Shown here: positions 16,006-49,708 of the stretch, piece by piece
Numbering within the stretch: the stretch's first letter is position 1
How the letters are laid out: every line of letters starts with the position of its first letter
From: a virus
Virus record (IMG/VR): IMGVR_UViG_3300009419_000011
Span: 1 to 64,000 of that record
Reading direction: 5' to 3' (one strand)
Length of the DNA: 64,000 bases
Position numbers and translations under genes: made by a program
The notes under the pieces: model-generated
What the model saw: the letters and a program-made list of their open reading frames with translations, nothing else
What the model was told of the DNA's origin: nothing
Database searches by the model: none

Positions 16006-16463
16006 TAACTGACCTCTACTTTCCCATTACCTAAATTGTTTACGTTTACAAAGCCACTGCCTCTACGTTCCATATCTACACCTTCCTCGGCACCAACGCC
16101 TCTGCAAAGCTCTTGGAACCATTTATCCACAATGGCCTCATCTGACTCGCCAGTATAACCAGCGGATCTTAATTGTAACACAAAATACTCATTCCAGTCA
16201 AGTTCAAAGAATCCGTTACGCACATTTTCTTTATTAACATGAGTATCTAGTACAGCTACCCAGGGCTCTTTCTTTTCATTTGCTATTTCTTTTGGGCTAA
16301 GTTTTGATAACCGTTCTAATTCTCTAGCACGTTCTGCCTGTGCCGCCGCCTCTTTGGCAATTTGCGTAGAGCGTTCTGCATCCTCTACAGCACGTCTAGT
16401 TTCGGCTTCAATTTTGTCAATGCCAAATATTTTTTTAATAAAACTGTTCATTAAGTTCCCCAC
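16005..16463 (-). CDS. Unknown phage protein with N-terminal coiled coil, 152 residues
   Basis: Not recognised. Residues about 15-60 form a charged Ala/Glu/Arg helix, probably a coiled coil (EAETRRAVEDAERS). The rest is globular with YFVLQLRSAGY and an acidic section. It lies between queE and rnh, overlapping queE by 13 bases. Confidence 0.6.
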   Translation of the reverse strand: MGNLMNSFIKKIFGIDKIEAETRRAVEDAERSTQIAKEAAAQAERARELERLSKLSPKEIANEKKEPWVAVLDTHVNKENVRNGFFELDWNEYFVLQLRSAGYTGESDEAIVDKWFQELCRGVGAEEGVDMERRGSGFVNVNNLGNGKVEVS

Positions 16464-17293
16464 TCATTTTTAAATAACGGCACTTGCAATCTGTCACTGT
16501 AGCGTAGACCTGCGTTCATTGCCATAATAGCTACTGCTCGATTGTTTAGTGCGTAAACACTTTCAACACCACCTACTGGCATTAGATAAACATGTCCTTT
16601 AAATCCTGCGGCACGATATTCTTCAGTAGCACGTTTAGCATCAGCAAAGTCTTGTTCTGTTGCAATAACAAACTTCAAATAAACTGTACCGTAGTTTTCA
16701 TAGTCACAAACTACTTCTGGCTTAATAGCATCTGCCCACGGCTCACCGCTACATGGAAGTTTAGCACTTACGCTGAAAGTAATTTCTCTCTCGTCGCTAC
16801 CGAACGCCCAGTCTTTTAAATATTCTTTAAATGCTGTAGTAAGACGCATAGTACCGTTGGTCTCAAAAGTAATTTCTTTTAGACCTGCCATCTTAGAATG
16901 TGATAACAAATCTGGATATTGTTTCTGCCATCCTAGCAATGGCTCACCGCCTGTAATTACAAGATGTTCGTCCCGCCATTCTTTGTGCGGTAACGAATCA
17001 ACAATAGCATCGGCAATTGAATCAGTAGAAAGAAGGGGAGATAGATGCTTAAAGCGAGGATCCCAACTAGCGTAACTGTCACAACCTGTACTAACCAAAG
17101 GTAGCGATTTGTACTCGGTGTAAAGAGTTGGGTCAATATTTTCTGCTTCATTGCTAAGTTCTCCTCGTGGCATGCCAAAGCCTTGACATTTAAAGTTACA
17201 TCCAAATGTACGCAAGAAAACGGAAGGTACTCCCATGTACCGTCCTTCACCTTGGATACTGTAAAAAAGTTCTGCGATTTTAATCTTACTCAT
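16451..17293 (-). CDS. queE: 7-carboxy-7-deazaguanine synthase (radical SAM), QueE
   Basis: 280 residues, longer than typical QueE (about 210-250). N-terminal YSIQGEGRYMGVPSVFLR is the QueE signature. The cluster cysteines are C32 and C36 (GCNFKC) and C71 (GCDSYASW), so about 34 residues are inserted where most radical SAM enzymes have two. The SAM-binding motif TGGEPLL follows. QueE converts carboxytetrahydropterin to 7-carboxy-7-deazaguanine. With folE, a QueD-like gene and dpdA in the same block, it probably supplies deazaguanine for DNA modification. It overlaps the MazG-like gene upstream. Confidence 0.9.
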   Translation of the reverse strand: MSKIKIAELFYSIQGEGRYMGVPSVFLRTFGCNFKCQGFGMPRGELSNEAENIDPTLYTEYKSLPLVSTGCDSYASWDPRFKHLSPLLSTDSIADAIVDSLPHKEWRDEHLVITGGEPLLGWQKQYPDLLSHSKMAGLKEITFETNGTMRLTTAFKEYLKDWAFGSDEREITFSVSAKLPCSGEPWADAIKPEVVCDYENYGTVYLKFVIATEQDFADAKRATEEYRAAGFKGHVYLMPVGGVESVYALNNRAVAIMAMNAGLRYSDRLQVPLFKNEWGT

Positions 17294-30088: not shown

Positions 30089-30505
30089 TTATTCTTCTAG
30101 ATTAACAGCGTCGGTATTAAAAAATTCTGGATTTGCTTTGTTAAACTTACGCATCACAATACCGGCTAACTCGTGTGCTTGATTTTCCTCAGGACTACCT
30201 GTAGCACCTGCACCAGGCTGTAGACCAGTTTCTTCGTTTTGTTTGTAATGCACCATTTCGTGTGCCAGTGTTCTTAGAATGTCTAATGGATGCCTATCTT
30301 CGATTGCAATATTGATTATTTTAGTTTCGCTATTGAAACTTCCAAAACTAGGCTGATCGTCTACACTGCCAATGCGTAAATGCATTTTGATCTTTGGAAC
30401 AGTTTTTAATTTAAGTTCGTTGACTGCAAAGGGAAGGAACTCCTGAAGTATTTTCATAAAATCAGGTTTTGAATTTACATTCTCTAATAAGTCTATGATT
30501 TTCAT
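30089..30505 (-). CDS. Zinc metallopeptidase-like protein with possible capsid-targeting leader
   Basis: 138 residues. Zinc site HEMVH (about 85-89) with a downstream Glu in EENQAHELAG as probable third ligand, as in SprT- or IrrE-like small peptidases. The N-terminus MKIIDLLEN resembles the short leader of T4 internal head proteins, with an L-x-E type cleavage site (LLE then N). If so it would be packaged in the head and enter the host with the DNA. It shares one base with the gene upstream, in a group whose members all start this way. Confidence 0.65.
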   Translation of the reverse strand: MKIIDLLENVNSKPDFMKILQEFLPFAVNELKLKTVPKIKMHLRIGSVDDQPSFGSFNSETKIINIAIEDRHPLDILRTLAHEMVHYKQNEETGLQPGAGATGSPEENQAHELAGIVMRKFNKANPEFFNTDAVNLEE

Positions 30506-31407
30506 TACTTGATAATTCTACGATCCAGTGCTGCCCATAGACGAGATTCGTAAGCAGGCTCTTTGTTTTTATGCTTAGTGTCGCCTTGCTTTTGGGCTTT
30601 CTTTTTATCTTTGTGAGCACCAGCACCGCTTTGCACAGCATTCTTGGCCACAAAGTTTCGAGGTTTAACTGTGTGTTTCACAGCACGTACACCTTTCTTA
30701 TTTTCTTCAACTGGCTTTTCTTTTAATTTACTGCGAGCCTGCATCTTAGACATTTTGTAAGTTGATTGGAATTCTTCGTCACTCATTGTGCGTAGATCCA
30801 TTAGGATCTCTTTAACTCCGCCCTCTTTGATACTTTCTTTTTTGTGGCTCTTATAACCCTTGTTTTTCATGGACCATGCTAGTGCATATGGATTATCAAT
30901 ATCATCATGCTTCTTCATAGCCTTAACAGTCTTTTCCCATCCTGGCGGTGCAACTTCTGCTACTGCACTTTCTTTTGGCACACAGTTAGGAACTTGTTTT
31001 CCGCCCTTTTTCTTCATGCCAATTTGCTTATAGTCTTTCCAACATGTTTCGTCTAATTCGCCCTCCGCTACACCTTGCCCTAACACTTGACGAACTAATA
31101 GTTCAGGAGCAAAATCCATGTCACCGGCTAGTTCTCTTGCTGCCGACAGCACTGCTTGTCTAGTTGGCTGTAATCTTTTTTCTTCTACATCTCTACGAAG
31201 TTTCATTATGAGAGATTGTGCATCATATCCCAAATCTCTAACGCCTTCCGCAGTGTTAGTTTCTTGGAACAGCTTTCCGCTATCAAGAGCATTGTCTGTA
31301 GGCTTTTGTCGTCTAATCATCTTGCCAGCCTTGCTAGGTGCAGTTGCTACAGAGCTTGTGCTCATTCCGCCTACGCTTGCAGATTCTAAAATTTGTATGA
31401 TTCTCAT
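30505..31407 (-). CDS. Unknown modular basic protein with possible capsid-targeting leader, 300 residues
   Basis: Leader MRIIQILES carries an I-x-E cleavage-like site. Around residue 120-145 there is a Cys module (CWKDYKQIGMKKKGGKQ, then VPNCVP) also present in the 1270-residue protein downstream in the map. A second module (PPGWEKTVKAMKKH, then NPYALAWSMKNKGYK) follows, and the C-terminal third is strongly basic. No enzyme motif is seen. Basic, modular proteins with such leaders fit a packaged internal protein; that is inference. Confidence 0.6.
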   Translation of the reverse strand: MRIIQILESASVGGMSTSSVATAPSKAGKMIRRQKPTDNALDSGKLFQETNTAEGVRDLGYDAQSLIMKLRRDVEEKRLQPTRQAVLSAARELAGDMDFAPELLVRQVLGQGVAEGELDETCWKDYKQIGMKKKGGKQVPNCVPKESAVAEVAPPGWEKTVKAMKKHDDIDNPYALAWSMKNKGYKSHKKESIKEGGVKEILMDLRTMSDEEFQSTYKMSKMQARSKLKEKPVEENKKGVRAVKHTVKPRNFVAKNAVQSGAGAHKDKKKAQKQGDTKHKNKEPAYESRLWAALDRRIIK

Positions 31408-31783: not shown

Positions 31784-32050
31784 TTATTTTTTACCAAACC
31801 AAAGTTCGAACCAAGCCGGCGTACCCGGTTTAATTCCCTGTTCACGCATTATGCGAGCATTTTCGTTACCATGTTGACTATGTAGCGGTATATCTCTTTT
31901 TGTCAAGTATTCACGCATACGCTGTTCTGCACCTAACTCTCCTAGCCAGTTACTAGATTGTAGTGCATGTACAGGATCATCTGGGCTTAGAGCACAGTCT
32001 GGATCAGTTGAAGCATCTACAGGGAATCCTGCTATTCGATATTGTTTCAT
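31784..32050 (-). CDS. Unknown phage protein, 88 residues
   Basis: Not recognised. Starts MKQYRIAGFPVDA without a leader-like motif; the core has DDPVHALQSSNWLGEL and a charged helix, ending PAWFELWFGKK. It overlaps the 1270-residue gene by 4 bases and ends 8 bases before the next ATG. Confidence 0.55.
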   Translation of the reverse strand: MKQYRIAGFPVDASTDPDCALSPDDPVHALQSSNWLGELGAEQRMREYLTKRDIPLHSQHGNENARIMREQGIKPGTPAWFELWFGKK

Positions 32051-35000
32051 TTATTGCTTTCGAACAGTTTTAAAATTGCCAGCGTCATTTCGAGTTCGTA
32101 TGCTTCGCCAATTGGCACACACTTATCTTTACCATTCTTAGTACCTGCGTACTTATAACCTTTCCAACAGGCTTTTCCGTCTGCACCTTTTTTCTTATCA
32201 GTCTCGCCTACTAATTTATGTGTAGGTTGTTCTTTAGGTGCTGTACCTTTTAACTGGCCTTGTGATCCTAGTTTGTTTTTATTACTACCTGCAAATTTGT
32301 TTGCAGACATCATTGCTTCATTCTTCTTAGCTATGTTTCTGCCTTTTAAATGTTCTTCACGACGTTTGTCACCAGCAGCACGTAGTTTGGCCGTAGCACC
32401 ATCTTTAGGATTAGTTAATCTACTGGCAACCTGTGCCATTGCGGAACTATTATCTTCCCCTACCTTCTTTTCATCATTAGCAAACTGTTTCTTAGTTGCC
32501 TTAACAATGCCGCTAAAACGTTTGTTGCCTTTGGCATAGTCGCCTGCTTTATCGGCAGCACTGGCTTGGGCACCTGCGGCTGTTTTATATTGTGCTAATT
32601 TTTCGTTGGATAGCTCTGACACAATCTGCCTTAAGTTGTTAACAGCAACGCTTTCGCTAATCTTTGGATCCCTGCCCATTTCTTTTTGGCTCAACAAATA
32701 ATCCCAAACACTAACTAGCATCATTTCTGCTTTGGCAATCTTTTCTTGTCCCCATTCTGGTAGGTTGTCATTACTCTTAATAGTTTTTAATAAGCCGTCG
32801 ACTGCACGAGCCATTGTGCGTAGATTACTCTGTGCCATTCCTGCTTCGTCGTCGTACTCGCCGTCGAAGTTTTCGTTCTTAGCCTTTGCTTTGCCTGCTT
32901 TCATATTTGCCATCCAATGTGCTAATTGTCCTTTACGTCCGCCTTGTTTAGCTACTTTACGTAGATTACTGACTGACGATTTTGTGGGAACTCCGTGACG
33001 CTTACTGTCGCCCTTGTCTTGTGGGTTGCGACCGTCTGCAAAGTTTTCATTTAACATCAGTGCGTTAAACAATCTCATTTCACCTAGTGCAGGTTGTTCA
33101 ACTGGCTGTGGTGCAGGTTGAACAGCAGGCTTCTTAACTGCTGGTTTTAATTGAGGCGTACTCATACCAGTCTTTGACACATCCATTAGATGTTTGATCC
33201 ATTGTGAAGGTAGTGGCTTTGCACCATCTTGCCCGCCATTAAATGCATCATTCCACATTTGAAATGCCTGTTGTTCATCTCCAGTTTTTAACACATTGCG
33301 TAGCTTAGTAAAGCTCATGCCAGTGCCTCTAGGAGTAACTTCTAACTGAACTTTAACATGCTCATATCCGGGAAACTTATTAACTGCTTTCATCAAAGCC
33401 TGTGCAATAGGCATCTTGGCCTGATCTTCACCTACCATAATAACAACATTATCGTAACGTGGAGGTTTACCCGGCAACGGATTAATCAGCTCGTGCTTGA
33501 TCTTCTGCATCAAAGATCCGCCTTCTTGAGTTACAGCACCAATGTTGGCTGCATACTCTGGATACAGTTGTTTCCAAGTTTTAATTTTATCTGCAACAGG
33601 AATAGGATCATCTACACCTACAGCATTACCCATAAACAAGTATGGATCTCCACTGACTTCTTTCGCCTTATTAATTGTAAGACCGAATAATTGTTGATGA
33701 CCTTTGTGTCCTACAAAACTGCCAATGGCTACTACCGCAGTTTTATTTCCTGTACGTGGTTGTTCTGTACGTGCTGCTGCTTTAGCTGCCTGCTTGTCTG
33801 CAATAATTTTCTTTTGCTGTGAGCTAGTAACTTTGATAGGTCCTAGACGACTATTGATAACAATGCCTTCGTAGTCTTGTCCTAACAAGTCCTTGCCTAA
33901 TATATTAGGATCTTCTTGAATTGCTTTTTCTAATGCTAATGCCACAGGTGCTAATATTTCTTTAGCTTCTCGCTTTTGTGCAAGTTTACCGCTGGCTAAC
34001 ATTGCTTTAATTTGTTCAATGTTTTCAACTGGGGGAACTATTGCAGTAACGTCTAGTCCTTCTTTTTGTGTTAATGAATTATCAATAAACATAACACTGC
34101 CTTGCTTGCCTAATCCTGTTAGTTGTTTAACAACAGATTGTGCATCGCCTAAGTCTTCTCCAGATGTTGCATCAACAACACGGAAGGGAACTAGTGCCAA
34201 TTGAATTCCTTGTGGTAACTTGTCGTAATGTATACCTACAAATTTTAATTTGCCTTCTGGAGTTTCTGTTGCAAATGGTAAGAACAGCACTTCGCAAGTG
34301 ACCTGCTTATTGACTAGAAATTCTGGACCTAATTTGCTATCAACTAATTTGATAGCGTTCATCATTTCCATGAACAGCTTGTCAAAGTTTTGAGCCCGAC
34401 CTAGAATCTCAGGATCAGTTGTTCCCTTTTCTTGATGGTACTTAACAAAGCTAGGTGCATACCTTGGGGGAGTATTACTAGTAGCCATAAATGGCTTGCC
34501 GTCTGCATCCTTACCAAAGCGTCCACCGAAACCATCTACTTTAACGTTTAATGGAATGTTTTGTAGTTTAAAATTGCCATTACCGTCATGAATTTCGTCA
34601 ATTAGATCTAATAAGTCAACTGGCTTTAGATCACGCAGGTGCGGCATATTCTTACGGAACTGTGCCTTAACTTCTTCTGCTTCCTGCAAACTTTCGGCAG
34701 TTACTTTATAAGCTGCTTTATATTGTTGCTTCATTTGTTCAAGGTCGCCTGGTGCTTGAACACCTAATTTATTAATCATAAGATCTAACGCAGCAGATTT
34801 TTCTGCACTATCACGTTCTGGATCTCCTTTGTAAAGGCCCTGAGCACCTTTGCCAAATATTTTATCAACAAATGCTGACAACACTGACTGCTTTTCTTCT
34901 GGAGTAACTAGAGTGTTCATTGCATCTAGTAAACCGGTAAAGCTCCAATACTTACTTTCTAACTGTGCTGCCTGTTTAGGATTCAATCTAGAACCAAAGA

Positions 35001-35859
35001 TAGATCCAAAAATCTTTCCAATATCCTGTTCGTAGCCTGTTGCAGGTAATGCCTGCATAACCGGCATGCCGTTGCTGACTATAGGCTGACCATCTGCTCC
35101 TAATACTGGTTCGTATTTGGCACGTAGACCACCACCTTCTTTGCTAGATACTGCAAAGCTGACCATGTTATCAGTTGTAGGCACATCTTGTATTTCTTTT
35201 GCTTTGCCCCGGCCTACTGATTTGCGTAGTAAGAAATCTTTTCTACTTAATGATGCTAGACTTTGAATTAAGAACTTGTGGAATACACCCTTAACTCCTG
35301 CGTTCAGATCATCCCAGCTACTGCTGTGACTAAATTTACTCCACGGAGTTGGCTCGTCCTTTTCAAATGCTACAAACTCTAAGTCAATTTGTACTTTAAT
35401 AGGAGGATCTTGTAGTTCCCATAGACTAGAGAACTGCTCGTTACCACGTTGGAAACCTAAGAACTTAGCATTGCCTACCATCTTACCTTGACTGGTAGAT
35501 AACCATTGTTCTAGTTCTTGTTCGTTTTCTTTATTGACTTGTGTGTCAATGTCGCCAACTTTAGGCTTCTTCTCCACAAATTGTTGATCGGTAATACCCT
35601 TGGTATTGAAGAAGTGTAGACTACTTCCGCTTAGAAATTGTTTACTTTGTAGTAGTTGCGGATTCCACAAAGGCTTTTTGTATTTTTTTGCAAAAGAATT
35701 GTTGATATTAAGCAACAAGGTATCTAAAATTGGTACAATATAGGAACGATTATGTACTTTAAGATCAATTTGTTGTGCTTCGTGTCCGCCAGGTAGCGAT
35801 AAATTGCCGCCTTCTGAAACAACTTTCTTTCTATTACTAAACAGCTCATTTAAATTCAT
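32047..35859 (-). CDS. Giant multidomain protein with three nucleotidyltransferase-type signatures
   Basis: 1270 residues. N-terminus MNLNELFSN resembles the T4 Alt leader MELITELF. Domain 1 has a polymerase-beta-type pattern: GSS (78-80), GDID (102-105), QIDLE (157-161). Domain 2 has covalent nucleotidyltransferase (ligase) motifs: KVDGFGGR (440-447), CEVLF (522-526), YEGIVI (663-668) and IKV (675-677). Domain 3 is HIGH-superfamily: GSFVGHKGH (713-721), VGEDQ (809-813) and MSFTKLR (848-854). The last 350 residues are basic low-complexity modules, including CWKGYKYAG. RNA repair, ligation or nucleotide transfer to a host target are possible. Each assignment is by eye; the combination is unusual. 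Confidence 0.65.
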   Translation of the reverse strand: MNLNELFSNRKKVVSEGGNLSLPGGHEAQQIDLKVHNRSYIVPILDTLLLNINNSFAKKYKKPLWNPQLLQSKQFLSGSSLHFFNTKGITDQQFVEKKPKVGDIDTQVNKENEQELEQWLSTSQGKMVGNAKFLGFQRGNEQFSSLWELQDPPIKVQIDLEFVAFEKDEPTPWSKFSHSSSWDDLNAGVKGVFHKFLIQSLASLSRKDFLLRKSVGRGKAKEIQDVPTTDNMVSFAVSSKEGGGLRAKYEPVLGADGQPIVSNGMPVMQALPATGYEQDIGKIFGSIFGSRLNPKQAAQLESKYWSFTGLLDAMNTLVTPEEKQSVLSAFVDKIFGKGAQGLYKGDPERDSAEKSAALDLMINKLGVQAPGDLEQMKQQYKAAYKVTAESLQEAEEVKAQFRKNMPHLRDLKPVDLLDLIDEIHDGNGNFKLQNIPLNVKVDGFGGRFGKDADGKPFMATSNTPPRYAPSFVKYHQEKGTTDPEILGRAQNFDKLFMEMMNAIKLVDSKLGPEFLVNKQVTCEVLFLPFATETPEGKLKFVGIHYDKLPQGIQLALVPFRVVDATSGEDLGDAQSVVKQLTGLGKQGSVMFIDNSLTQKEGLDVTAIVPPVENIEQIKAMLASGKLAQKREAKEILAPVALALEKAIQEDPNILGKDLLGQDYEGIVINSRLGPIKVTSSQQKKIIADKQAAKAAARTEQPRTGNKTAVVAIGSFVGHKGHQQLFGLTINKAKEVSGDPYLFMGNAVGVDDPIPVADKIKTWKQLYPEYAANIGAVTQEGGSLMQKIKHELINPLPGKPPRYDNVVIMVGEDQAKMPIAQALMKAVNKFPGYEHVKVQLEVTPRGTGMSFTKLRNVLKTGDEQQAFQMWNDAFNGGQDGAKPLPSQWIKHLMDVSKTGMSTPQLKPAVKKPAVQPAPQPVEQPALGEMRLFNALMLNENFADGRNPQDKGDSKRHGVPTKSSVSNLRKVAKQGGRKGQLAHWMANMKAGKAKAKNENFDGEYDDEAGMAQSNLRTMARAVDGLLKTIKSNDNLPEWGQEKIAKAEMMLVSVWDYLLSQKEMGRDPKISESVAVNNLRQIVSELSNEKLAQYKTAAGAQASAADKAGDYAKGNKRFSGIVKATKKQFANDEKKVGEDNSSAMAQVASRLTNPKDGATAKLRAAGDKRREEHLKGRNIAKKNEAMMSANKFAGSNKNKLGSQGQLKGTAPKEQPTHKLVGETDKKKGADGKACWKGYKYAGTKNGKDKCVPIGEAYELEMTLAILKLFESNK

Positions 35860-35860
35860 T

Positions 35861-36235
35861 TTATTTTCCTAACCGATACATGCCTTTGAGGATGTCGCCG
35901 TTGTAGTGTTCTGATAATCGAGTGCATAAAGATTCTCTAAACTCTTTGGAAAATAATTTTTTAGGATCTTCTTTAAGATCAAATCTATGATAAAATTTCA
36001 TGCAGCCTTTATTGGCCAACGGCATCCAAACTTCCGGAGTATGCTCGGCAGTGGGTTTGTTTCCGATTTCTTCCGCAATCGGGAAGAAGACCTTTTTATG
36101 CAAATTGTCGTCATTTATGATATATTCTAATATATCTTCTAACATCTGTGTTTCTTGAAGCTTGTCGTTTTCTTCATTTTTTGACAGCTTGTCGTTTTTG
36201 ATGTTTAATCGTCCAAAGAATTCATTTAATAGCAT
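35861..36235 (-). CDS. Unknown protein with possible capsid-targeting leader, 124 residues
   Basis: Starts MLLNEFFGRLNIKND, a leader like that of the 1270-residue protein next to it (L-N-E before FF). The rest is helical with VFFPIAEEIGNK and MKFYHRFDLKEDPKKLF. It ends 1 base before the giant gene starts, so the two are co-transcribed. No family recognised. Confidence 0.6.
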   Translation of the reverse strand: MLLNEFFGRLNIKNDKLSKNEENDKLQETQMLEDILEYIINDDNLHKKVFFPIAEEIGNKPTAEHTPEVWMPLANKGCMKFYHRFDLKEDPKKLFSKEFRESLCTRLSEHYNGDILKGMYRLGK

Positions 36236-36777: not shown

Positions 36778-37461
36778 TTAGCCCTTAACTAATGTATCTC
36801 GAGGTATGTATTCGTACACTTTGCGGATGTTGTTGCCTAAGAACAAATGAGTCATGGTCAACATCTTACTGTCCTTAACGTAAAAGAACGGATCTTGTTT
36901 ATACGAGTATCGTCCAGTCATCCATTCTTCAGTAGTTGGGCTAATTTTAATATCGTCACCGTATTTTTTAGCCCATTCGTGGAATTGTAATTTTACATTA
37001 GATGCAACATTCCGCATGACAACTTTATAAACATACTTTTCATGAGGTATGACATCACACAATACTCGTTTGTTTTCGTTATCTAACAAAAATGTTAATT
37101 GGTCTGGAGTTTCTGGCTCGTATACTGTCCATAACCACGGAGATAGATCTTTCAAAATACTGTTATAAACTGTAGGATCTTTACAGAAAAGGCAGAACTT
37201 GCTGCCTTCTGCTCTAATCTGAACTTCTTCCTTACGGTCTAAGTAAGACATAACCGCGTTGGTAAATGCACGAAGTTTATCTTTGTCAACTGCAATTTTT
37301 GAATATCCTAAACTAACAGCTTTACCGTCGCAATAATCTAATACAGGGCCAATGCCGTATCGAACTATTCTACTAGAAGCCGTTACAAGGCATTCAACCT
37401 TGTAAGGCCACTTGTTATAGAATAGCTTATTGACCTTCTGTCGCTTTATCGATTTCAACAT
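36778..37461 (-). CDS. Unknown phage protein, 227 residues
   Basis: Not recognised. Basic N-terminus (MLKSIKRQKVNKLFYNKW), Cys residues in SKFCLFCKDP but no full zinc site, and a C-terminal section with MTHLFLGNNIRKVYEY. Its start overlaps the end of the Clp gene by 35 bases, indicating coupling to it. Confidence 0.6.
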   Translation of the reverse strand: MLKSIKRQKVNKLFYNKWPYKVECLVTASSRIVRYGIGPVLDYCDGKAVSLGYSKIAVDKDKLRAFTNAVMSYLDRKEEVQIRAEGSKFCLFCKDPTVYNSILKDLSPWLWTVYEPETPDQLTFLLDNENKRVLCDVIPHEKYVYKVVMRNVASNVKLQFHEWAKKYGDDIKISPTTEEWMTGRYSYKQDPFFYVKDSKMLTMTHLFLGNNIRKVYEYIPRDTLVKG

Positions 37462-38356
37462 TTTCTACTACAGGTAAAATTTCAGGATATGTCAAAGTAA
37501 GATCGTTACCTTTAACACCTACTTCAACTACTCCTCCGTTTACTAATCGACCGAATAAGATTTCCTTACTTAGCGGCTTTTTAATCATATCATCAATTGT
37601 ACGTTGTAGTGGACGAGCACCCATCTTACGATTGAATCCTTTCTTAATTAACAATTCGGCAGCATCAGCAGTCAGCTTAACAGCAACATTCTTATCTTTC
37701 AACAATCCATTCAGTTCGTCAACAAACTTCTTGACAATCTTTGCCATAGTGTTGTGATCTAGTTTACCGAACTTGATAATGCCGTCTAATCGATTGCGGA
37801 ATTCTGGCTTGAAGAAACTGTTAATAGCACCGTCAGTTTCGTCTCCACGCTCTAAGCTACCAAAGCCCACTGCATTGCGATCATTGTCAGCAGCACCTAA
37901 GTTACTGGTAAGGATAAGGATAGCATTGCGGCCGTCCGCCTTCTTGCCGTTAGATCCAGTAACATAACCGTTATCCATCATTTGTAGCAGTACATTGGCA
38001 ACATCCGGATGTGCTTTTTCAATCTCATCAAACAACAAGATAGCATTTGGGTGCTCTTGCAGTTTAGTAATCAACATACCTGCATTGTCTTCAAAACCAA
38101 CATATCCAGGAGGGGCACCGATAAACTTAGCAACTGAGTGTTTCTCTTGGAATTCACTCATATCAAAGCGAACTAGTTCTACTCCCATACTTGCAGCCAA
38201 TACTTTAGCAGTCTCAGTCTTACCTACACCTGTTGGACCTGTAAATAGGAAACTACCTACTGGCTTGTTCAAGCTCTTCAAGCCTGCTTGTGCAATAAAG
38301 ATTTTATCTAACAAGATTTCGATAGCAGTTTCTTGACCAAACACTTTGTTACGCAT
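37427..38356 (-). CDS. clpA: ClpA/ClpB-like C-terminal half (second AAA+ domain), separated by a frameshift
   Basis: 309 residues. Begins MRNKVFGQETAIEILLDKI; Walker A GPTGVGKT, Walker B ILLFDEIEKA, then sensor and arginine regions (PEFRNRLDGII) and the D2 small domain (MGARPLQRTIDD). In normal Clp proteins this follows directly after the first domain. The frame stays open upstream of this ATG as FALDQIAQKENKN, joining in register to the end of the 38407 gene with one base missing. The two parts sum to about 755 residues, the length of ClpA. Whether this ATG is used on its own is unknown. No ClpP is seen in the window. Confidence 0.8.
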   Translation of the reverse strand: MRNKVFGQETAIEILLDKIFIAQAGLKSLNKPVGSFLFTGPTGVGKTETAKVLAASMGVELVRFDMSEFQEKHSVAKFIGAPPGYVGFEDNAGMLITKLQEHPNAILLFDEIEKAHPDVANVLLQMMDNGYVTGSNGKKADGRNAILILTSNLGAADNDRNAVGFGSLERGDETDGAINSFFKPEFRNRLDGIIKFGKLDHNTMAKIVKKFVDELNGLLKDKNVAVKLTADAAELLIKKGFNRKMGARPLQRTIDDMIKKPLSKEILFGRLVNGGVVEVGVKGNDLTLTYPEILPVVENVEIDKATEGQ

Positions 38357-38406: not shown

Positions 38407-39696
38407 CTAGCGCAAACCAGTCAGTTTACTGACTTCAAACAAAATTTCATCGTGATCGACAATACCTTGTTCTTCGTCTCGTACTTTAAATCTAGCACAC
38501 GCACAATCAATTAGGTCAATTGCTTTATCTGGTAATTTCTTATCAGTCATGTACTTGATAGAATACTTTACGCTATCAATTACTGCTTGATTAGTGATCT
38601 TAACACCGTGATGTTGTTCATAATACTTTTTAAGACCTTTGATAATCTTAATAGCGGTAGCTTCATCTGGCTCGTTTACTACAACACGTTGGAATCGACG
38701 CATTAGGGCACGATCCTTTTCAAAGTGTTTGCGGAACTCTTCCCATGTAGTTGATGCTACGACTTTGATAGTACCTTTGCCTAACGCTGGCTTGAGCATA
38801 TTAGCCATGTCATTAGATCCACCGCTTGCTGATCCAGCACCGTTCATCATGTGTGCTTCGTCAATGAACAAGATACAGTTCTTTTTCTTTTCAAGTGCAG
38901 TAATTAGCATCTTTAGGCGTTCTTCAAAGTCGCCTCGATATTTGCTACCTGCTAGCAAAGCACTGATATCTAAACTGTAAACTGTGTGCCCTTGAATAAA
39001 CTTAGGAACCTTGCCTTCTTCAATCTTACGTGCTAGACCTTCTGCAATAGCAGTCTTACCTACACCCGGATCACCGATCAGCATGACATTTGATTTTTGA
39101 CGGCGTGCTAGTGCAAGTTGAATTTCTTCAATTTCTTTCTCACGTCCAATAACTGGATCAATCTTTTTCTGTTTAACTCTATTGGTTAAGTTTGCACAGT
39201 ACTGAACAATCATCTTTTCTAGTTGATTGCCACCTACTTCACTAGCTTCACCGTCTTCGTTCAATGCACTGTTATTCAGGAATTCGATAAACTTGTCTTT
39301 ATCGATTTTAGCCTTACGTAGGAAGAAGTTAGCAAAGCTCTTCTTTTCGCTAAAAATACTAATGAAGCAGTCAACTGGTTCAATTACTGTACGCCCGCCA
39401 AACAATACTTGTGTAAAAGCACGATTCAACATACGTTCTACAGTGTTTGTTTTCTTTGGGCGATAATTTTCTTTGTCGGTTTTAATGTCGTTAAGATCAT
39501 CTCGAATAAATTTTTCGAGGCTCTTCTTTAGCAGTTCGACTTCGGCACCAAACTCTTTCAGCATCCCTTTGAACTTTTCATCAGTTACCATACTGTACAA
39601 AAAGTGTTCCAGCGTGATATACTCATGTTTATGTTTGGCAGCAACCTCAATTGCACGTTCAAACATTCCTTCGAGATCGTTATTTGGTTCCAGCAT
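38407..39696 (-). CDS. clpA: ClpA/ClpB-like N-terminal half (N-domain and first AAA+ domain)
   Basis: 429 residues. N-terminal Clp repeat domain (ALSA-type helices with HEYITLEHFLYSM, about 24-36), then AAA+ domain 1 with Walker A GDPGVGKTAIAEG and Walker B CILFIDEAH, and LMRRFQRVVV as the arginine-finger region. It ends VSKLTGLR at a TAG (38407-38409), exactly where Clp proteins continue into domain 2. Clp ATPases unfold proteins for degradation or reactivation. It shares one base with the deformylase gene upstream. Confidence 0.88.
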   Translation of the reverse strand: MLEPNNDLEGMFERAIEVAAKHKHEYITLEHFLYSMVTDEKFKGMLKEFGAEVELLKKSLEKFIRDDLNDIKTDKENYRPKKTNTVERMLNRAFTQVLFGGRTVIEPVDCFISIFSEKKSFANFFLRKAKIDKDKFIEFLNNSALNEDGEASEVGGNQLEKMIVQYCANLTNRVKQKKIDPVIGREKEIEEIQLALARRQKSNVMLIGDPGVGKTAIAEGLARKIEEGKVPKFIQGHTVYSLDISALLAGSKYRGDFEERLKMLITALEKKKNCILFIDEAHMMNGAGSASGGSNDMANMLKPALGKGTIKVVASTTWEEFRKHFEKDRALMRRFQRVVVNEPDEATAIKIIKGLKKYYEQHHGVKITNQAVIDSVKYSIKYMTDKKLPDKAIDLIDCACARFKVRDEEQGIVDHDEILFEVSKLTGLR

Positions 39697-48404: not shown

Positions 48405-49253
48405 TTACACCTCAAAAATAAAGTTATCGTCAAATTCTACTTCACCTGGATAACCTCTAGGGTTGCAGACAACTCTAGTATCCCCTACCATATAGTCAAA
48501 CTGTTGATGCATGTGACCATGAGTCCAAGCCTTAATCCTAGGATGATCTAGAATAAACTCACTCAGATTGCTGGCATATCCACCGTTCATCAATGTGTCA
48601 TCTTTGTACCGATCTCCTATGCTGAGAAACGTAGGAGCATGGTGAGTACATACAACTACTTTAGCATCTTGAGGCAGGCCTTGTACAACAGTTTGAATGT
48701 ACTGCTTGGTCTTAATATGCTCAACCACAGCTCGCTTGGGTAAGAACTTTCTAAAGTTCTCATTAGCAATACGAATGACTTTAAAGTCGTTCATCATATG
48801 CTCAATATGATACAGAGTAAGAGCATCGTGATTGTTCATGTCAGTCCAAAGTGTACCGCCTATGAAATAAACACCGTCAATTTCTTTAGTGTTATTATCC
48901 AACAGATGCACATTGGTCAGACCCATTTTCGTAAATTCATCTCTCAAATATTTTGCACTTCGATCGAATTTACCGTGATAGTGTTCGTGATTACCCATCA
49001 CATAGATAACATGCGGGAATTGAAAACTAACACGCTTAAAGAAATCTCGGAATCTTTGTGCTTTGCCTGCTTGACGCTTAAGATCTTCTAATGCACCGGG
49101 ACTCCAGGGATCAAACTGAGCCGCAGGATGGTCATGAAGATCTTGTGCTGTACAAATGTCGCCAGACAGCACCAAAACGTCCGCACCATTTTGGTTCTGG
49201 AGGTTCAGATCATGAAACTCTAAGTGGAGATCTGATGCTAATTGGATTTTCAT
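48405..49253 (-). CDS. Calcineurin-like metallophosphoesterase
   Basis: 282 residues. The metallophosphoesterase motifs are in order: SDLHLEFHD (D8, H10), LSGDICT, VMGNHEHYHG, CTHHAPT and WTHGHMHQQ. Two metal ions are expected. Substrates of this family include nucleotides, cyclic nucleotides, DNA and phosphoproteins, so the phage substrate is unknown. It overlaps the nucleotidyltransferase upstream by 4 bases. Confidence 0.9.
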   Translation of the reverse strand: MKIQLASDLHLEFHDLNLQNQNGADVLVLSGDICTAQDLHDHPAAQFDPWSPGALEDLKRQAGKAQRFRDFFKRVSFQFPHVIYVMGNHEHYHGKFDRSAKYLRDEFTKMGLTNVHLLDNNTKEIDGVYFIGGTLWTDMNNHDALTLYHIEHMMNDFKVIRIANENFRKFLPKRAVVEHIKTKQYIQTVVQGLPQDAKVVVCTHHAPTFLSIGDRYKDDTLMNGGYASNLSEFILDHPRIKAWTHGHMHQQFDYMVGDTRVVCNPRGYPGEVEFDDNFIFEV

Positions 49254-49708
49254 TTTTTGCTTTCTGCTTCTGCCACACGCTTGCGTAGACTGCTGGAACT
49301 AAAACTGTGGTCTCTACCGTTAAAAACTAAGTTAATGCCTCTTTGTAAGCAAATAGCTTTACCAGTAAATTCTTTCTCTTTGTACTCTATACCTAATATT
49401 CTAACATCAATTGGTAAAATGAGCAAGAGATCTTCTAGGTCTTTTTCAGTATTATACACCACAATTTCGTCAACATAGCGAGTTGCAGCCAACTGAATTT
49501 GCCGTTCTACAATGCTTTGTATTGGCTCATTCTTTTCTGGACGATCCCACTTGGCATTGTTTTGTAACCCTGCAATAAGGTAATCGCAGTGATTGCGAGC
49601 TTCACTTAGCATAGCAATATGGCCTGCATGTAGCATATCAAATTGGCTAAAGGTAATGCCAATCTTCATTCCTTGCTTTTTAAGCTCTTGTATTTTGTTG
49701 AAGATCAT
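49250..49708 (-). CDS. Cytidylyltransferase-like nucleotidyltransferase (TagD type)
   Basis: 152 residues. Nucleotide-binding motif FSQFDMLHAGHIAML (about 20-34), a middle RQIQLAATRYVDEIVVY, and a final SSSSLRKRV in place of ISTTxI. This fits glycerol-3-phosphate or sugar-phosphate cytidylyltransferases. It could feed nucleotide-sugar work of the glycosyltransferase pair, but they are far apart. Its ATG overlaps the stop of the small membrane gene upstream (ATGA). Confidence 0.85.
   Translation of the reverse strand: MIFNKIQELKKQGMKIGITFSQFDMLHAGHIAMLSEARNHCDYLIAGLQNNAKWDRPEKNEPIQSIVERQIQLAATRYVDEIVVYNTEKDLEDLLLILPIDVRILGIEYKEKEFTGKAICLQRGINLVFNGRDHSFSSSSLRKRVAEAESKK

Follow-up and report, generated by a model that had tools for sequence, protein, structure and literature searches.

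A predicted head-cargo polyprotein with three nucleotidyltransferase folds in a probable T4-like phage

We describe a 1270-residue open reading frame (ORF) at positions 32047-35859 of a 64,000-nucleotide stretch of viral DNA (the window: positions 1 to 64,000 of IMG/VR record IMGVR_UViG_3300009419_000011, a virus contig of 80,174 bases). We propose that its product is an effector polyprotein of a T4-like phage, packaged in the head and processed by a gp21-type protease; this mode of delivery we consider probable. Granted such delivery, repair of nucleic-acid ends has about an even chance of being what the enzymes do, and the two propositions taken jointly fall somewhat short of even. The fullest form of the idea, offered tentatively, is that T4-like phages from many environments would load a repair kit into the virion: as the capsid matures, the head protease would cut the polyprotein into a ligase-adenylyltransferase and a Pol X-like nucleotidyltransferase, which would enter the host along with the genome and rebuild broken tRNA (or DNA) before phage gene expression. 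The parts of the ORF are as follows, with arrows marking predicted cuts.

32047-35859, minus strand: whole ORF, 1270 aa, ATG start; predicted head-cargo polyprotein.
35812-35859, minus strand: leader, residues 1-16, MNLNELFSNRKKVVSE ahead of GGN; predicted capsid-targeting propeptide with a gp21-type site after E16.
34681-35811, minus strand: domain 1, residues 17-393, predicted pol-beta superfamily nucleotidyltransferase; GS 78-79, GDID 102-105, QIDLE 157-161.
34663-34704, minus strand: disordered linker, residues 386-399, with the site SLQE↓AEE (E393); low pLDDT at model residues 370-383.
33769-34680, minus strand: domain 2, residues 394-697, covalent nucleotidyltransferase (ligase-like) core; KVDG with K440, E523, EG 664-665, K676.
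33145-33750, minus strand: domain 3, residues 704-905, HIGH-superfamily adenylyl/cytidylyltransferase; GHKGH, SFTKLR.
32050-33144, minus strand: tail, residues 906-1270, with sites after 938, 1069, 1252 and 1267; varies among relatives, with lysozyme or other modules inserted.

In the proposed pathway, the short N-terminal leader would target the precursor to the prohead core, and the gp21-type protease (S77) would cut after E16, exposing a conserved Gly-Gly-Asn terminus. A second cut, after E393, would free the pol-beta-type nucleotidyltransferase from a two-domain ligase-HIGH (LIG-HIGH) enzyme; the tail would probably be trimmed too. The mature enzymes would be ejected with the DNA, able to act before phage gene expression. 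The pol-beta domain may add nucleotides to nucleic-acid ends, of RNA more likely than of DNA, and the K440 ligase domain may seal them, in effect a ready-made means of mending, for instance, tRNA cleaved by host nucleases. An accessory adenylyltransferase role, perhaps in making NAD, would fall to the HIGH domain.

The leader, already noted in an earlier sequence-only reading of the window, is borne out by comparison with relatives and is the most informative feature of the ORF. We took 87 ORFs that contain domain 1 and whose N-terminus is intact (those cut at the left end were excluded) and collected from them 60 distinct leader or start strings, which are related sequences and not independent draws. 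Three are leaderless, all from cultured phages (Va1, Moby and X1) whose proteins begin directly at MGGN; the X1 string is an over-extended start, the gene being annotated to begin there. All 57 others have Glu at -1 before G(G/S)N and Leu (37), Ile (13) or Val (7) at -3, the leader being otherwise variable. The motif persists at the end even in the six leadered starts with 124-509 aa of other sequence ahead. According to PMC9026906, L/I-X-E precedes the cut made by T4 gp21, and propeptides of 10-19 aa target the T4 internal proteins; like these proteins and the injected enzyme Alt, the ORF has a short N-terminal propeptide ending in a gp21-type site. Leaders of their own also stand on two separately encoded parts: MLLSELFE↓A at the start of the HIGH gene of relative L064, and MGFEKYLQE↓A at that of the L116 ligase gene. 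As a side observation, the roughly 509 aa ahead of domain 1 in L039 (2245-3780) have no Pfam match and are possibly a longer cargo string.

The second predicted cut site is similarly preserved. The position of E393 is Glu in 43 of 43 rows of our alignment, and 35 of the 43 linkers contain (L/I/V)xE(A/G/S/D), as compared with a mean of 5.8 and a maximum of 14 in 1000 shuffles. Scanned for (L/I/V)xE(A/G/S/N), the window protein gives six sites, after residues 16, 393, 938, 1069, 1252 and 1267, all of them outside its folded domains. We then counted (L/I)xE(A/G/S/N) against shuffles over 49 non-redundant fused ORFs from both of our IMG/VR scans. Leaders held 49 sites where 6.4 were expected (at least one in 43 of the 49 ORFs) and the linkers between domains 1 and 2 held 36 against 4.1 (in 34 ORFs), roughly an 8-fold enrichment at both boundaries; tails held 53 against 24.7. 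Inside domain 1 the count fell to 3 against 37.8, a 12-fold depletion, with 16 against 36.0 in domain 2 and 9 against 17.5 in domain 3. The motif is thus strongly avoided in domain 1, and to a moderate degree in domains 2 and 3. The ligase-HIGH linker had no site (0 against 0.2), which fits the single LIG-HIGH ORF of Va1 and of Campylobacter phage CP220.

Control proteins from the same loci behaved differently: DNA polymerase (32 against 16.5, 9 sequences), DnaJ (30 against 15.0, 34 sequences) and ClpA (135 against 87.9 and 135 against 91.5, for two overlapping queries with 35 and 39 sequences) all ran at 1.5 to 2.0 times expectation, with no depletion. A 227-aa ORF gave 11 against 8.9 (18 sequences), and three small sets gave 0 against 1.8 (5), 0 against 1.2 (2) and 2 against 1.5 (1).

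Could the product be an ordinary cytoplasmic multi-enzyme, its leader having nothing to do with the head and its E-GGN being kept for folding or start-site reasons? The leaderless versions of X1, Moby and Va1 would agree with this, as would the leaderless LIG-HIGH protein of CP220 and the window neighbours, which are DNA polymerase, ClpA and DnaJ and not capsid genes. It is nonetheless unlikely in our estimate: leaders vary except at -3 and -1, the second site falls in a disordered linker, the motif is avoided within domain 1, and relative L004 carries a lysozyme module. Delivery in the head, on the other hand, would explain the fixed positions of a variable leader, the linker site, the site avoidance, the MGGN starts and the lysozyme modules together.

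Turning to the enzymes themselves, the product is one intact ORF, as first read: it runs from its ATG without interruption and with zero internal stops. Every motif listed in the sequence-only reading was located in it, namely GSS (78-80), GDID (102-105), QIDLE (157-161), KVDG (440-443), YEGIVI (663-668), IKV (675-677), GSFVGHKGH (713-721) and MSFTKLR (848-854). The other rows of the 43-row alignment are 40-89% identical to the window protein, and one of them, L069, ends early in the third domain. Residues G78, S79, G102, D103, D105, D159, E161, K440, D442, G443, E523, E664, G665, K676, G713, H718 and H721 are invariant, while T851 and R854 are kept in at least 90% of the alignment; judged by this conservation, the motifs are not chance matches.

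Three nucleotidyltransferase folds had been claimed, and AlphaFold2 models with fold searches recovered such folds in all three regions; nowhere did structure prediction yield folds that fail to match nucleotidyltransferases. The model of residues 17-930, built from the 43 rows, has a mean pLDDT of 86.6 and a pTM of 0.46, so the domains are loosely placed relative to each other. Because the fold list of this 914-residue model was filled by domain 3 plus a few domain 2 rows, domain 1 was also folded separately (pLDDT 93.3, pTM 0.89). Its search listed 50 structures, all of the pol-beta superfamily by title, among them Pol mu, lambda and beta, viral Pol X, terminal uridylyltransferases (TUTs), GLD-2, the TRAMP polymerase core and CutA. 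This hit list and the motif GS...GDxD...QxDxE, invariant in 54 rows and found also in five distant phages, lead us to assign domain 1 to the pol-beta superfamily of nucleotidyltransferases, by score the weakest of the three predicted fold matches. Against Pfam it had zero matches up to E 1, RlaP included, a family for which we take a Pfam model to exist.

Domain 2 combines the predicted fold of the covalent nucleotidyltransferase/ligase superfamily with the motifs of that superfamily: the KxDG nucleophile, the Glu of motif III, the EG pair and the last Lys. It matches Naegleria gruberi RNA ligase (5cou, 6vt1; Z 10.9 over 190 aa, rmsd 3.4), with which it shares the nucleotidyltransferase-domain fold and the motif set; the match is however limited to residues 137-339 of that enzyme, at 15-16% identity. 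Rows for DNA ligase 1 in the Foldseek list were set aside, their rmsd being near 20 over some 500 columns. As modelled, a pol-beta fold next to an RNA-ligase-like fold is compatible with RNA joining or repair.

Domain 3 possesses both the HxGH and SxTxxR motifs and the HIGH-superfamily fold, matching phosphopantetheine (PPAT), NMN (NadM) and nicotinate (NadD) adenylyltransferases at up to Z 13.0 and FAD synthetase at Z 10.9. In sequence searches, the sole Pfam match of the single protein is FAD_syn (E 0.032, weak, in domain 3); against PDB sequences and NCBIfam it produced either nothing or a weak hit of domain 3 to FAD synthetase, and with the 43-row profile domain 3 alone matched PDB sequences. 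The window's own domain 3 has no NCBIfam match, and the best matches of its counterparts Moby51 and Va1_166 are NMN adenylyltransferase models, under their cut-offs. One might picture a small-molecule enzyme set that counters NAD-depleting defences, with NAD or a comparable dinucleotide made by the HIGH domain and domains 1 and 2 acting around it. The NadD/NadM fold matches and the score of Moby51 speak for it, but PPAT matches the fold equally or better and HIGH is the least constant part of the protein (69 of 79 loci, below). Neither do we know of any role for a ligase in NAD synthesis, and altogether we give this explanation little chance, less than any other considered here.

How constant the combination is was gauged by scanning IMG/VR with a domain 1 alignment, which returned 185 relatives; the best 80, in 79 loci of which some are near-duplicates, were kept. 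In 67 loci the domains follow each other in the order 1-2-3 within a single ORF. Among the other 12, domain 1 and the ligase occupy different ORFs in three, domain 1 stands apart from a ligase-HIGH ORF in one, and HIGH stands apart in another; a further locus is a domain 1-ligase fusion in which no HIGH was found, one is truncated where its contig ends, and five show domain 1 only. Since a ligase thus accompanies domain 1 in 74 of 79 loci and HIGH in 69, pol-beta and ligase appear to form the core pair.

Domain 1 is also found in 38 of 50,697 cultured-phage records (16 Stenotrophomonas, 15 Campylobacter, 6 Vibrio and 1 Xanthomonas). A search with the LIG-HIGH protein of Va1 gave 21 records, which by name are the same 15 Campylobacter and 6 Vibrio phages, while at E 0.01 the ligase-HIGH region of the window matches X1 and 10 of the 16 Stenotrophomonas records. 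Xanthomonas phage X1 and Stenotrophomonas phage Moby encode the parts as distinct genes of one cluster, with one other gene between domain 1 and ligase; in CP220 the domain 1 and LIG-HIGH genes lie about 65 kb apart, the latter about 2 kb from the portal gene. In phage IBB_35 the two matches fall on different contig records. Such co-occurrence without adjacency argues for a joint function. It also qualifies the claim that this is one protein: that is true of the ORF, but probably not of the mature state, given the cut predicted between domain 1 and domains 2 and 3 and the separate genes elsewhere. Two strict peptide patterns run over 84,980 species genomes gave 73 matches. Just one of these encodes a relative, and the contig concerned, though assigned to a bacterial bin, looks phage-like by its genes. 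The strict patterns had no match in plasmids; looser patterns might find more in either search.

An unrelated-looking gene stands between domain 1 and ligase in three split versions (L009 4948-5952, L012 4728-5672 and L116 5039-6355). We had suspected by eye a PD-(D/E)XK nuclease in such genes (X1 WEM34318, Moby gp049, the 438-aa ORF of L116) and in Va1_167, and dropped the idea: Pfam gave nothing credible for the three that were scanned, all except that of L116, and BLASTP among the four showed no relationship (best E 2.2). In L116, the ORF after the ligase looks by eye like a metallophosphoesterase.

The principal alternative keeps the delivery and changes the chemistry: injected enzymes would put nucleotides on host proteins or tRNA, for takeover or anti-defence, as Alt does with ADP-ribose. 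The pol-beta nucleotidyltransferases of polyvalent proteins are thought, in PMC5512222, to modify proteins, and the second Foldseek match of domain 1 is the nucleotidyltransferase toxin MenT4 (E 0.02). This match is weak, with a probability of 0.38, and the constant partner of domain 1 is of the ligase type, which a protein-modifying enzyme would not need; we regard protein or tRNA modification of this kind as a distinctly minor prospect. The likeness to T4 Alt drawn in the sequence-only reading is therefore divided. Its delivery side is supported by the agreement of both the leader and the linker site with the T4 gp21 motif and by the protease genes of several relatives; its chemical side is not supported, as we see no sign of protein modification.

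As for the protease required by head delivery, an S77 enzyme is encoded by three of eight long relatives, the same three having intact gp23 and gp20, and by all four cultured relatives tested. Together with these T4-type head genes of long relatives, the genes near the ORF in the window (DNA polymerase, a ClpA-like ATPase, a DnaJ-like protein recognised by eye and tail-fibre proteins) point to a large T4-like myovirus as the source.

A number of observations weigh against head delivery followed by end repair. The 80-kb record of the window holds no S77 protease and no gp23, and five of the eight long relatives lack the S77 protease and intact gp23 or gp20, one of them having a short gp23-like piece; for the window phage, we infer that the head block is missing from the record rather than that the phage has no protease. 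The leader of the window ends in V-S-E, slightly off a strict L/I-x-E. Domain 1 lacks a leader in X1, Moby and Va1 in spite of their protease genes, and packaging, should it take place, is thus not universal. In the separate ligase genes of L079, L080 and L082 the site reads FFE↓S, and the LIG-HIGH genes of CP220 and L035 have no such leader. Within domains 2 and 3, 16 and 9 sites are still present. Two contigs (58.9 and 116 kb) from the five loci with domain 1 only were searched and yielded no ligase-HIGH. Finally, the fold scores of domain 1 are low (Z 7-8, best 8.2), at a level that the tool flags as common by chance, and its Foldseek search gave no match at E 0.001 or better (best E 8e-3).

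The tail, described as long and basic in the sequence-only reading, indeed counts 66 Lys or Arg and 43 Asp or Glu among its 365 residues. It includes stretches common to neighbouring ORFs of relatives, and this is where additional modules may be found: the precursor of L004 contains LysM and lysozyme domains (the ORFs of L005-L007 are of equal length, 1602 aa), and the polyprotein of L040 (8725-10707) has a GP88 domain in its tail (PF17338, E 2.4e-34). Elsewhere in precursors, L071 carries a metallopeptidase-like module and L022 a homologue of the 124-aa ORF upstream in the window.

Three known systems come close. T4 Alt is likewise an injected enzyme, and is cut at both ends according to PMC9026906; the present protein differs in having three nucleotidyltransferases instead of an ADP-ribosyltransferase, and in a predicted inter-domain cut that would give several enzymes per precursor. 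Polyvalent proteins also combine unrelated effector domains, several to a polypeptide; they typically include lysozyme and peptidase domains, and their injection is thought likely (Iyer et al. 2017, PMC5512222), which recalls the modules of L004 and L071. In contrast to the present case, where sites match the head protease, processing by a built-in metallopeptidase was proposed there; the accessible part of that article lists pol-beta nucleotidyltransferases for conjugative-element polyvalent proteins only and does not describe the combination of pol-beta, ligase and HIGH. In jumbo phages, RlaP pol-beta nucleotidyltransferases track RNA ligases and are presumed to put back lost nucleotides (PMC7824862, accessible part), a constant pairing with a ligase-type enzyme, as here; domain 1 differs in having no Pfam RlaP match, and RlaP is not described in that part as head-packaged or as belonging to a polyprotein.

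Open-access literature (subscription journals lying outside it) yielded no description of an enzyme polyprotein cut by gp21, nor of the present combination. For phage IBB_35, 38 structural proteins were reported; gene numbers 1-56 and 1-57, taken to denote the homologue, are absent from the main text of PMC3322345. What is new is the set of delivery features, added to known head cargo (Alt and internal proteins) and to polyvalent proteins.

If the proposal is true, the head protease matures modular cargo polyproteins, several enzymes being loaded via one targeting signal, and uncultured phages could be screened for cargo of this kind by the (L/I)xE pattern. With a pol-beta and ligase pair in the head, RNA damaged by the host could likewise be repaired from time zero, with a bearing on phage survival under tRNA-cutting defences; a polyprotein strategy for head loading and pre-packaged RNA repair would then be seen in one system. 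Versions of the parts exist in cultured phages of Vibrio, Campylobacter, Xanthomonas and Stenotrophomonas, which makes the idea testable.

Two further ORFs of the window have homologues fused ahead of domain 1 in relatives.

35861-36235, minus strand: upstream ORF, 124 aa; homologue in L022 (28% identity, E 1e-14), where the junction is LME↓GGN.
30089-30505, minus strand: downstream ORF with a metallopeptidase-like HEMVH motif; homologue in L071 (42% identity, E 2e-31), where the junction is IME↓GGN.

The adjacent ORF 30505-31407 begins MRIIQILE-SASVGGMSTSSVAT and resembles the gp23 stretch YLAE-SATAGATSAGNVAT of relatives (BLASTP E 0.012); it may be another head-targeted protein, the gp23-like junction being suggestive only. 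A Cys-rich motif, CWKGYK...GK.KCVP, occurs at the C-terminus of the polyprotein (about 32110-32172), inside ORF 30505-31407 and in the tails of several relatives, and may be a tag common to this group of proteins.

The gene of the ClpA-like ATP-dependent protease is in two pieces, 37427-38356 and 38407-39696, both matching phrog_4871. The near-identical relative L001 has a single 756-aa ORF at this position, and the split in the window may be genuine or may come from a sequencing error. At 49250-49708 lies another HIGH-type nucleotidyltransferase, separate from the polyprotein, whose closest family is heptose-1-phosphate adenylyltransferase (E 1.8e-19, below the cut-off of that family). At 16451-17293, a QueE-like radical SAM protein (E 1.5e-15, under family cut-offs) hints at deazaguanine DNA modification.

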